Source of the DNA: Sulfuricurvum sp. | GTDB taxonomy: Bacteria; Campylobacterota; Campylobacteria; Campylobacterales; Sulfurimonadaceae | Length of the DNA stretch: 43,801 nt | Reading direction: 5' to 3' | Assembly: GCF_023250475.1 (NCBI RefSeq) | Contig: NZ_JAHFAQ010000002.1 | Location: forward strand, 1-43,801 | Shown here: piece after piece, positions 2,818-43,801 of the stretch | Position numbering within the stretch: position 1 is the stretch's first letter | Layout of the letters: every line of letters starts with the position of its first letter | Notes under the pieces: generated by a model | The model's database searches: none | Seen by the model: the letters and a program-made list of their open reading frames with translations, nothing else | What the model was told of the DNA's origin: nothing | Position numbers and translations under genes: made by a program

Positions 2818-3597
2818 TTACGCTTCCTCTGCTACTACTGCTACTTCTTCGACAGCCGCTTCAACTGCTACTTCAGATGCAACTTCTTCTTCCGCTACCG
2901 CTTCGTCGTTTCCGCCGTTGCGAAGTGCTTTACCTTCGTTGATCGCTTCAGCCATTTCTTTACAGAAAAGTTGAATTGAACGGATCGCATCGTCATTTCC
3001 AGGGATTGGAATGTCGATAACGTCCGGATCACAGTTAGTATCAAGTGGAGCAACAACTTGGATTCCGAGGTTACGCGCTTCTTGAACCGCAATGTGTTCT
3101 TTTACCGCATCGATAACGAACATCAAATCAGGCAAAGTTTTCATATGACGGATACCGCCGAGGTATGCAATCAATTTTTCTTTTTGACGATTCATCATCA
3201 ACGCTTCTTTTTTAGTCAAAAGGTTGATTTGTCCGTTTGCTTGCATCTCTTCGATGATGTCAAGTTTACGGATTGATTTTTGGATCGTCGGGAAGTTTGT
3301 CAACATTCCACCCAACCAGCGGTTGTCAACGTATGGCATTCCACATGCAACAGCCGCATCACGGATGGCTACGCGAGCTTGTTTTTTGGTCCCTACGAAA
3401 AGGACGGTTTTCCCCTCAGCCGCAGCATCAACTACTTGCTGATACGCATTGCGGAAATAACGCAATGTTTTTTGAAGATCGATGATGTAGATGTTTTTAC
3501 GAACACCGAAAATGTATTTTTTCATTTTCGGATTCCAACGACGTGTTTGGTGACCAAAGTGTACACCACATTCCAAAAGGTCTTTCATAGTTACCAT
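2818..3597 (-). CDS. rpsB: 30S ribosomal protein S2
   Basis: S2 is a late-assembling 30S subunit protein. The family signatures are present: [19 protein letters not shown] near the N-terminus, FVGTKKQA, and [13 protein letters not shown] in the centre. The product is 259 aa; about the last 30 residues are a low-complexity acidic tail of Ala, Val and Glu beyond the conserved fold. The DNA encoding the tail is an imperfect triplet-like repeat and gives leucine-rich shadow ORFs on the other strand. It is the first gene of the rpsB-tsf operon, with a leader of about 140 nt. Confidence 0.98.
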
Positions 3598-41226: not shown

Positions 41227-41772
41227 CTAACCTCTCCATGCCCGCTCTTTCCATGTATCCACATGGACAAAACTTGGATATATACCGATTCCGGCTCCGC
41301 CGCACATACGAAGTAACCTTGCTAAATAATCGGCAGGGATACCCTCTATTTTTATGTCAGCCGCTTTGCCGTACAAATGCATCGAATTAAAAGCAGCCCC
41401 TTCGATATTGTTATTGGTATGTTGAGTACGATAGCCTGACGTAAGGATAATGGGGCGGTTAATTTGATTACTGGATAACCATTGCTGAGCTTTGGCTAAA
41501 ACCACAAACAAATTTGGATCCATTTGTACGGCTACTCCGGCACGGACATCTGCAAAAACGCGGCATAAATCGTTATAGCCGTTTTCTTCTACTTTGCCAT
41601 CGCGGAGAAACGGAATTTTATAGGATGTACCGTTGCGAATGACATTAAGAATTTTATCTTCTCCTTTATAACCGGCATAAAGGGATGTTGATGCTGCTAA
41701 TGCAATGGCACTTTTTATAAATGTTCTCCGCGCAGGATTCAACAGAGAAGATTCTATGATTTTAGTTTGCAT
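41227..41772 (-). CDS. Tat-exported DUF882 (MepK/YcbK-like) peptidase
   Basis: A 181-aa protein of the M15-like family to which E. coli MepK belongs; that enzyme cuts 3-3 cross-links in peptidoglycan. The twin-arginine signal is ARRTFIKSAIALAAS. The zinc-site motifs are SGYRTQHTNN, HLYGKAADIKIEG and FVHVDTW. The track starts at a TTG (41778); the ATG at 41772 is preferred. It has a TATAAT 28 nt upstream but only a weak ribosome binding site. It precedes topA on the same strand after a 171-nt gap. Confidence 0.87.
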   Translation of the reverse strand: MQTKIIESSLLNPARRTFIKSAIALAASTSLYAGYKGEDKILNVIRNGTSYKIPFLRDGKVEENGYNDLCRVFADVRAGVAVQMDPNLFVVLAKAQQWLSSNQINRPIILTSGYRTQHTNNNIEGAAFNSMHLYGKAADIKIEGIPADYLARLLRMCGGAGIGIYPSFVHVDTWKERAWRG

Positions 41773-41799
41773 AAACAAAATATTTTCTCAACTTTTATT

Positions 41800-41884: not shown

Positions 41885-41899
41885 TGGCACACTTCTTGC
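41885..41899 (+). promoter_or_regulatory. Sigma-54 (RpoN) promoter of the secretin cluster
   Basis: TGGCAC, 5 nt, TTGC followed by T. The GG and GC dinucleotides are exactly 10 nt apart, as the -24/-12 rule needs. Predicted +1 is near 41911, giving a leader of about 25 nt before the ATG at 41936. No sigma-70 -10 box competes in this interval. Confidence 0.8.
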
Positions 41900-41935
41900 T
41901 TTTTATCGTCAAATAATCCCTAAGAAAGTGGCGAT

Positions 41936-42328
41936 ATGAACTATTTTTGGTCATTTCTTTTTCTTGCACTATCGCTAAATGCGGCCTATAACCCGTTTTT
42001 TCGTGAGCCTGTAAAGCCGAAGAAAGCTCCGGCAGCAACGTCAGATGTACGTCCCATGCCTCTGCCGCCATTATTAGCTCCACCTTCATTACCCGCCATA
42101 AAGCCGGTTTTTGATCTTTCGCAATTAACCTATAACTGTTTTTTAGAAACAGATAAAGGGAAATTCATCCTCCTTAAAATAGGGACAAACACCGTTGTTC
42201 TGAAAGAGGGTGATCCCTTTTATGCGAATAACGCCAAATATTTTGTACGAAATATCACCAGCAACTACATTACCGTAGATGATGCAGGACGAATACAAAC
42301 CATCTATTTCACGACAGGAGCAAAATAA
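41936..42328 (+). CDS. CtsR-like small exported protein of the secretin cluster
   Basis: A 130-aa protein with a short signal peptide (MNYFWSFLFLALSLNAA) and then a proline-rich linker (PMPLPPLLAPPSLP). A small beta-rich domain follows at about residues 65-130 (ILLKIGTNTVVLKEGDPF). Position just before the secretin matches CtsR (Cj1475c) in C. jejuni, needed for DNA uptake. It also resembles PilP/GspC-like partners that dock secretins. The assignment rests on order and layout, not on clear sequence identity. Its stop shares one base with the secretin ATG (TAATG). Confidence 0.6.
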   Translation: MNYFWSFLFLALSLNAAYNPFFREPVKPKKAPAATSDVRPMPLPPLLAPPSLPAIKPVFDLSQLTYNCFLETDKGKFILLKIGTNTVVLKEGDPFYANNAKYFVRNITSNYITVDDAGRIQTIYFTTGAK

Positions 42329-43773
42329 TGCGTTCGATTATACTTGCTGCCGTACTTTTGGGGTTAACCGGTTGCAGTGTCGCCACTAAACAAGAGACTC
42401 TGACTCCTGAAATGCATCTCAAAGAGTTGGACAACAACGTCACGCAGATTCAACGCTCTAATCCAGCGATGCAAATTGTTGAAGTCAATGCTGATAATTT
42501 CCATATTGAGCCTCAAATCATTCCCGATAAAGAGATAATTAAACGGGCTAAAATTATGGGGGCGGAGTTAAGTGATGTTATTGCTTTGCTGACCGAAGCT
42601 ACCAATGAAAACGTTGTATTCCAGCTTCAGGCTGAATCGGTCAACTCCAATAAATATAATACCGCGCTAACATCTACCGGAAGCAATAATAATGAATACA
42701 CCGGCAAGAACGATTATCTGCTTTCAGAAACCAATATTAATCTTTCCGCATCCAATATCCCTTTTGGAAAAATGCTTCAAAAAACTGTTGGGGATAAGCT
42801 CAGTATTCTCTATAGTGATGACACCTTTTATTTAGGAAATATGCGAACCGTAACGCTGAAAATTCCGTCGGTTAACGGTCTTCCCGAAATACTCAAATCA
42901 AGTATTGCGTCTATGGGTGCCAGTAATGTCTCTACAGATGCCATTACCTCTTCGGTTAGTTTCTCGGCACGGGAAAAAGAGTACGGCGATATTATGAGAT
43001 ATCTTGAGATACTCCGAAACAACCTCTATGTCATCGAGTATGAAATCTCCATCTACGATGTTGAGCTCAAAGATAATTATGCTCTCGGAATTGACTGGAG
43101 TCTTGTCCCGACCCTTGCCAAAGATGGGCTCAGTTTTGTCGCTTCCGCAGCAGGAGGATTAGGTTCAGCCGGTGCATCAGCCGTCCCGCTTACGTTCGGA
43201 ATGATCATGAAAAATGATACATATAACGGAAAAGCTCTTGTCAATGCCTTAGAGAATTTCGGAAAAGTAGAAAGTGTTCAGCGACCGAAACTTTTGGGAT
43301 TGGCTGGTACCAACGTCAAACTTACCGACGGTATTGAAGCCCCTTACATCAGCGGGATACAAAATACTTCGGTCGGCAACGGAACATCTCAAGTCTCCAC
43401 CACCAGTGCAACGGCACTCAGCGGCTTAGAGATCAATCTTAAGTCAAATATGCTTGATGGTACCGTTATCACAGACATCGGCCTCAAAATCAACGATATC
43501 GTAGGTTATACCTCATTTGAAGTCAACGGCAATAAATTCTCTCAACCGCAAACGGTCACCAAAGCGATCACCAATACCATGCGCGTTCAACCGGGTGTTC
43601 CGATCGTTATCTCAGGACTTTTCCGCAATAAAAGCGATAAAGGATGGAGCGGGCTTCCGGGTCTTGGAGACAGCGCAGCAGGTGTTGTAGGAGGAGCGCG
43701 TCACGCGTCCGGCACAAAAAGCGAGATGGTAATTGTCGTTACCCCTCGCGTAATCAAGTATGTGATGAAATAA
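42328..43773 (+). CDS. Outer-membrane secretin lipoprotein, MshL/CtsD-like
   Basis: A 481-aa secretin of the type IV pilus/type II secretion superfamily. The lipobox is LTGC (C16). An N-terminal domain includes MGAELSDVIALLTEATNENVVF (STN/N0-like), and the secretin core shows VQRPKLLGLAGTNVKLTDG. The hallmark near the C-terminus is VPIVISGLFRNKSDKGWSGLPGLGD. MshL and C. jejuni CtsD are the nearest families that I recognise. It would form the outer-membrane pore of a pilus-like competence or secretion machine. Confidence 0.9.
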   Translation: MRSIILAAVLLGLTGCSVATKQETLTPEMHLKELDNNVTQIQRSNPAMQIVEVNADNFHIEPQIIPDKEIIKRAKIMGAELSDVIALLTEATNENVVFQLQAESVNSNKYNTALTSTGSNNNEYTGKNDYLLSETNINLSASNIPFGKMLQKTVGDKLSILYSDDTFYLGNMRTVTLKIPSVNGLPEILKSSIASMGASNVSTDAITSSVSFSAREKEYGDIMRYLEILRNNLYVIEYEISIYDVELKDNYALGIDWSLVPTLAKDGLSFVASAAGGLGSAGASAVPLTFGMIMKNDTYNGKALVNALENFGKVESVQRPKLLGLAGTNVKLTDGIEAPYISGIQNTSVGNGTSQVSTTSATALSGLEINLKSNMLDGTVITDIGLKINDIVGYTSFEVNGNKFSQPQTVTKAITNTMRVQPGVPIVISGLFRNKSDKGWSGLPGLGDSAAGVVGGARHASGTKSEMVIVVTPRVIKYVMK

Positions 43774-43775
43774 CC

Positions 43776-43801
43776 ATGGCAATTTTTACGGCAGGATCTC
43801 T
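43776..43801 (+). CDS. Start of the next gene in the secretin cluster (truncated by the window)
   Basis: An ATG 2 nt after the secretin stop opens a frame reading MAIFTAGS to the window end. In C. jejuni the gene after ctsD is ctsP, an ATP-binding protein, so an ATPase is expected, but the eight residues seen cannot show it. Confidence 0.4.

Follow-up and report, generated by a model that had tools for sequence, protein, structure and literature searches.

A conserved sigma-54 promoter of flagellar type heads a putative accessory type IV filament cluster in Sulfuricurvum and Sulfurimonas

Introduction

To our knowledge, sigma-54 (RpoN) is linked in Campylobacterota almost only to flagellar middle genes. 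In the FlgS/FlgR–sigma-54 class II regulon of Campylobacter and Helicobacter, the targets are genes for the rod, the hook, and minor flagellins. FlgSR senses assembly of the MS ring, rotor, and export gate (PMC7064773), FlgR of Helicobacter has no DNA-binding domain (PMC3162934), and RpoN is conserved together with FlgRS in F3-class Campylobacterota (PMC9321776). Elsewhere, pili under the control of sigma-54 have been described (PMC3162934, PMC12316311). In the PilS/PilR–sigma-54–pilA system of Pseudomonas and Geobacter, it is type IV pilus genes that are driven from such promoters. The canonical type IV pilus of Campylobacterota is built from pilMNOPQ with PilB, PilT, and PilU (PMC11870540). 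In the literature that we searched, we did not find the combination of FlgR, sigma-54, and a pilus in Campylobacterota, nor did we find an earlier report of the promoter described here in the literature on pili, secretion, and RpoN regulons of Sulfuricurvum and Sulfurimonas, a search with most subscription journals outside its scope.

Here, we analyzed a window of 43,801 bases, which is the complete contig C26 of a draft Sulfuricurvum genome (G000; 2.17 Mb in 185 contigs). The locus shares with the class II regulon the promoter motif, the distance of the promoter to the start codon, and an FlgR without DNA-binding domain, and we also count the FlgP-like–FlgQ–FlgR gene order in this genome as a likeness; however, instead of rod, hook, and minor-flagellin genes, the predicted target is an entire cluster for a type IV filament. 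As with PilS/PilR, sigma-54 would drive type IV pilus genes, and in two related loci (L088 and L089) sigma-54 sites even lie before pilin genes; in contrast to that system, the promoter here heads secretin and assembly genes, FlgR of the flagellar cascade is the candidate activator, and no PilR-type activator (PilS-linked, with HTH) was found in the genome, only a NifA-like and an FlgR-like one. The cluster belongs to the same superfamily as the canonical type IV pilus of Campylobacterota, with PilM and PilN parts that are apparently fused, but its order is P-Q-MN-O, and it has its own GspE and GspF, with separate PilB, PilT, and PilU elsewhere in the genome. Among protein families, the cluster secretin matches MshL of the MSHA pilus best, yet the score stays far below the family cut-off. 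Finally, the layout is broadly similar to that of the Campylobacter Cts system, from which the cluster differs in a non-orthologous secretin, P264, and GspE and in its sigma-54 promoter, which Cts lacks.

Results

TGGCACACTTCTTGC at window positions 41885-41899 on the plus strand (TGGCAC-ACTTC-TTGC, then TT) is a full -24/-12 sigma-54 element that matches the consensus at 10 of 10 positions, with TGGCAC at -24 and TTGC at -12. Its GG (41886-87) and GC (41898-99) are spaced by 10 nt, giving GG-N10-GC. A divergent gene for an M15-type peptidase on the minus strand and a plus-strand gene for a protein of 130 aa (R130) flank the 157-nt gap in which the element is located, and 36 nt separate the element from the R130 ATG at 41936. 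Standard sigma-54 promoter geometry predicts a transcription start ~12 nt past the GC, at 41911 (+), which would give a leader of ~25 nt. The divergent gene (41227-41778, minus) encodes a MepK-like peptidase with a weak Tat signal match, and a gene of this type adjoins the cluster in the majority of Sulfuricurvum loci, whereas Sulfurimonas does not keep it there.

The exact 15-mer occurs twice in the 2.17 Mb genome, the window site included; the second copy, on contig C11, is antisense within a glycosyltransferase gene. Because there are two exact copies per genome, a lone match proves little: it could be due to chance, and the genome-wide count does not separate it from chance. With the extended motif TGGNAYN5TTGCTT, 0.05 matches are expected in the window, and the one found is the site at 41885. 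The decisive evidence for a promoter is conservation across loci. Orthologues of the cluster secretin were identified in 21 of 151 genomes of the family, in 26 named loci, and in one genome of another family (G418). All 30 loci with upstream DNA (25 named loci, the window, G062, G139, G141, and G418) keep the site; they come from Sulfuricurvum, Sulfurimonas, related genera, and the genome of the other family. Among the 25 named loci, of which L100 and L101 share near-identical upstream regions and are therefore not fully independent, the invariant positions are TGG and the A in the -24 box, TGC, and the T that follows TGC; the other -24 box positions are C/T/A and C/T. The eight core positions carry 1.97 bits of information on average, versus 0.32 bits over 55 nt upstream, and for each locus an equally good site would arise by chance at this place with a probability of about 5e-4 or less. 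The distance between site and start codon is 29-45 nt, except in L105 (12 nt, to the start codon as chosen) and G418 (49 nt). The flanks of the site have diverged between loci, and the cluster was found in several unrelated neighborhoods, e.g. next to TopA/BioB versus Ppx. Because the neighborhoods differ while the site stays, the promoter belongs to, and travels with, the cluster and not the place. These comparisons confirm that the sigma-54 promoter at 41885-41899, which a sequence-only reading of the window had pointed out, is real and evolutionarily conserved; its use would depend on RpoN.

As that reading had also proposed, we searched the genome for further sigma-54 sites and for enhancer-binding proteins. 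TGGNAYN5TTGCWT had 21 matches compared to 2 for the reversed pattern, i.e. a tenfold enrichment, and many of these matches lie before flagellar genes. The genes directly 3' of sites include flgB, flgE, flgI, an flgL-like gene, fliK, and a pseB-like gene; an flgF/G-like gene also carries a site, and a further one heads the LPP20-family (FlgP-like) gene of an FlgP-like–FlgQ–FlgR operon that ends in flgR. Most start codons are 22-44 nt from their site: the distance is 22-43 nt for flgB, flgE, the flgF/G-like gene, flgI, the flgL-like gene, and the FlgP-like operon, ~30 nt for flgH (named from its sequence), and 60 nt for fliK, and the 36 nt of the filament cluster fall within the range of most sites. 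Because the cluster promoter agrees with this genome's flagellar sites both in sequence and in start-codon distance, we classify it on this basis as a promoter of flagellar type. Strong sites 30-44 nt before genes without known function mark candidate new flagellar or surface genes: G000:C25:12454 (before a 409-aa gene), G000:C35:33635 (67 aa), G000:C102:35611 (149 aa), G000:C147:1594 (143 aa), and G000:C182:2278 (262 aa).

Downstream of the promoter, R130 (41936-42328, +) is the first cluster gene; its product, the conserved family A3, has an N-terminal signal-like stretch and an AYNPFF motif. R130 had no match above noise in Pfam, NCBIfam, or solved structures, and nothing was found in PHROGs. 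Since it occupies the position of PilP/GspC in the layout, we infer a PilP-like role. The next gene (42328-43773, +) encodes a secretin with a lipobox-like N-terminus (PF00263, 58.9 bits, over the cut-off) that is MshL-like, with MshL as its best NCBIfam match at 91 bits, below the family cut-off of 250; its best match among solved structures is BfpB. P264 (family A2; MAIFTAGSL...) begins at 43776 (+) and is cut by the contig end at 43801, and the full gene is present in L072 and other loci. The profiles of P264 and R130 gave no clear match among solved structures. In a low-confidence structural model, P264 combines a small domain with a membrane helix, a coiled coil, and an alpha-beta domain; the weak resemblance of this model to PilM, PilO2, and PulM, together with the gene layout, would make P264 PilM-PilN-like; layout and low-confidence models likewise underlie the proposed PilP and PilO roles.

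In relatives, the gene order is R130, secretin, P264, X156, one to four pilin-like genes, another pilin-like gene, GspE, GspF, and a further pilin-like gene. In this genome, the second half of the cluster is on G000:C27 (L198), with two pilin-like genes, GspE, GspF, and one more pilin-like gene. Secretin (PF00263), GspE (PF00437), GspF (PF00482), and the prepilin signals (PF07963) are all supported by Pfam, including in the genome's own copies on C26 and C27. The pilin-like proteins have two invariant cysteines close to the C-terminus, and two C-terminal cysteines occur in many type IV pilins. The pilin model had no match among solved structures and, therefore, its fold does not decide between pilus and pseudopilus. 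By its gene content (PilP-like, secretin, PilMN-like, pilins, GspE, and GspF), the cluster is best described as an accessory type IV filament machine, whose product would be a surface filament. Because the genome has its own separate PilB-, PilT-, and PilU-like genes elsewhere, the cluster represents an additional machine. It may function as a pilus, in pseudopilus secretion, or in DNA uptake, alternatives between which sequence alone cannot tell. In two Sulfuricurvum genomes, extra sigma-54 sites lie inside the cluster in the gaps before duplicated pilin-like genes (TGGCACAAAAATTGCTTA at L088:11403-11417, TGGTACAAAAATTGCTTA at L088:12152-12166, and TGGTACAAAGATTGCTTA at L089:11477-11491).

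The search for enhancer-binding proteins returned two sigma-54 activators in the genome, one NifA-like (GAF-AAA-HTH_8) and one FlgR-like, all other matches being weak AAA matches. The FlgR-like protein (386 aa; REC-AAA-lid, no HTH) is encoded behind the FlgP-like gene. Some FlgR proteins of Sulfurimonas retain an HTH-like tail, while those of G133 and G104 end without HTH. In both activators of this genome, the GAFTGA loop carries a D (GAFTDA, GSFTDA), which has been reported for FlgR of Epsilonproteobacteria (PMC3162934); the NifA-like activator (L039:8558-10300, minus) has GAFTDA, as do all NifA-like proteins of relatives examined. An activator of the FlgR type is present in 21/21 cluster-bearing genomes checked and is the only type common to all of them. 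In six genomes that keep the promoter, it is the sole activator: G133 (100% complete), G069 (99%), G048 (95%), G104 (90%), G026 (83%), and G132 (57%). RpoN is present in this genome in two copies (G000:C102:44993-45445 and G000:C17:14765-15223). In G062 and G093, about 6 kb separate the second rpoN from the NifA-like gene, which suggests a nif-dedicated sigma-54. Because 132 of 151 family genomes have RpoN, its co-occurrence with the cluster is by itself weak evidence. rpoN was not seen in the cluster-bearing assemblies G132 and G026, probably due to their incompleteness.

Three other explanations of the site or the cluster were weighed. A chance match, with the cluster transcribed from a sigma-70 promoter, would account for the perfect 15-mer being found twice in the genome with one copy inside a gene; it is nevertheless hardly credible and was rejected, given that the site is kept in 30/30 loci amid diverged flanks, that the extended motif is tenfold enriched, and that only one weak sigma-70-like match lies nearby, no more than in shuffled sequences. 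Alternatively, the NifA-like activator could fire the sigma-54 promoter, which would couple the filament cluster to nitrogen limitation. The genome encodes such an activator with an HTH together with a second RpoN, and the two are neighbors in relatives; however, G133, G069, G048, and G104 keep both cluster and site although they lack a second activator, the site resembles flagellar sites, and TGT-N10-ACA, the NifA enhancer, is absent between the divergent gene and the site, the nearest copy being ~630 bp upstream inside the divergent gene. We therefore regard control by NifA as unlikely, though less so than the other two alternatives.

The sequence-only reading had taken the genes for a competence/secretion cluster with a CtsR-like protein. 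That they form a Cts system of Campylobacter type for natural transformation, controlled by RpoN, is very doubtful. The layouts are alike, with a small exported protein, a secretin, small membrane-associated proteins, GspE, and GspF, and the GspE proteins are similar in length (520 versus 519 aa). The order in C. jejuni, as we take it to be, is pyruvate oxidoreductase, ctsR, ctsD, ctsE, ctsF, and then flgK on the opposite strand. Using gene order and gene sizes (the latter from PMC8308473), we identified Campylobacter-type cts loci, in which ctsR is directly 3' of the oxidoreductase gene; in three genomes, no GG-N10-GC was present within 300 nt upstream of ctsR. Identity is only 21-22% for the secretin (CtsD) and 32-37% for GspE (CtsE), and in a tree of 47 GspE-type proteins with long branches and unsure exact placement, cluster GspE and CtsE formed separate clades, each with support of 100/100. 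Among 349 genomes of the order, the P264 profile had no member outside cluster genomes (E<=1e-4), and it did not connect P264 to CtsP or CtsX. Moreover, there are no pilin genes beside the cts genes, compared to three or more in the filament cluster. Because secretin, GspE, and P264 are not orthologous and ctsR has no sigma-54 site before it, we rejected membership in Cts. In L203, a Campylobacter-type genome, TGGCACTGTAGGTGC was found at position 3296 (cluster strand) within the gene for pyruvate oxidoreductase, probably by chance.

Discussion

We propose that an accessory type IV filament cluster in Sulfuricurvum and Sulfurimonas has its main promoter in the site at 41885 and that RNA polymerase with RpoN would read this promoter. 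Its activator is likely FlgR, which is a receiver-AAA+ protein and lacks a DNA-binding domain, in agreement with the FlgS/FlgR-type link suggested from the window alone: FlgR is encoded in 21/21 cluster genomes, it is the sole activator in G133, and the site is flagellar-like. Because FlgR has no DNA-binding domain, no enhancer would be needed at the promoter. FlgS would phosphorylate FlgR upon completion of the MS ring, rotor, and export gate of the flagellum; since FlgSR fires at this step (PMC7064773), a single checkpoint would turn on the filament cluster along with the rod and hook genes. We consider this whole reading, from the RpoN promoter of the cluster through FlgR as its activator to the flagellar checkpoint, to be likely. 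Because FlgR is the only candidate activator found in every cluster genome, pilus and flagellum are probably made together. The stronger proposition, that the filament machine is wired into the flagellar checkpoint such that FlgS senses the MS ring-rotor-export gate and an enhancer-free FlgR turns on rod and hook genes plus the cluster, with both machines built in step and perhaps cooperating, stands in our estimate at even chances.

If true, one checkpoint would be reused to co-build two machines with no new DNA-binding specificity. It has been proposed that the flagellar motor of Campylobacterota took over parts of the type IV pilus (PMC11870540); a flagellum-coupled filament cluster would be a plausible setting for such borrowing. 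In several Sulfuricurvum, two or three flagellin genes are located directly 3' of the filament cluster (L072, minus; L073:15282-19550; L074, minus), and in L072 and L073 the first flagellin gene has a sigma-28-like site and the second a sigma-54-like site.
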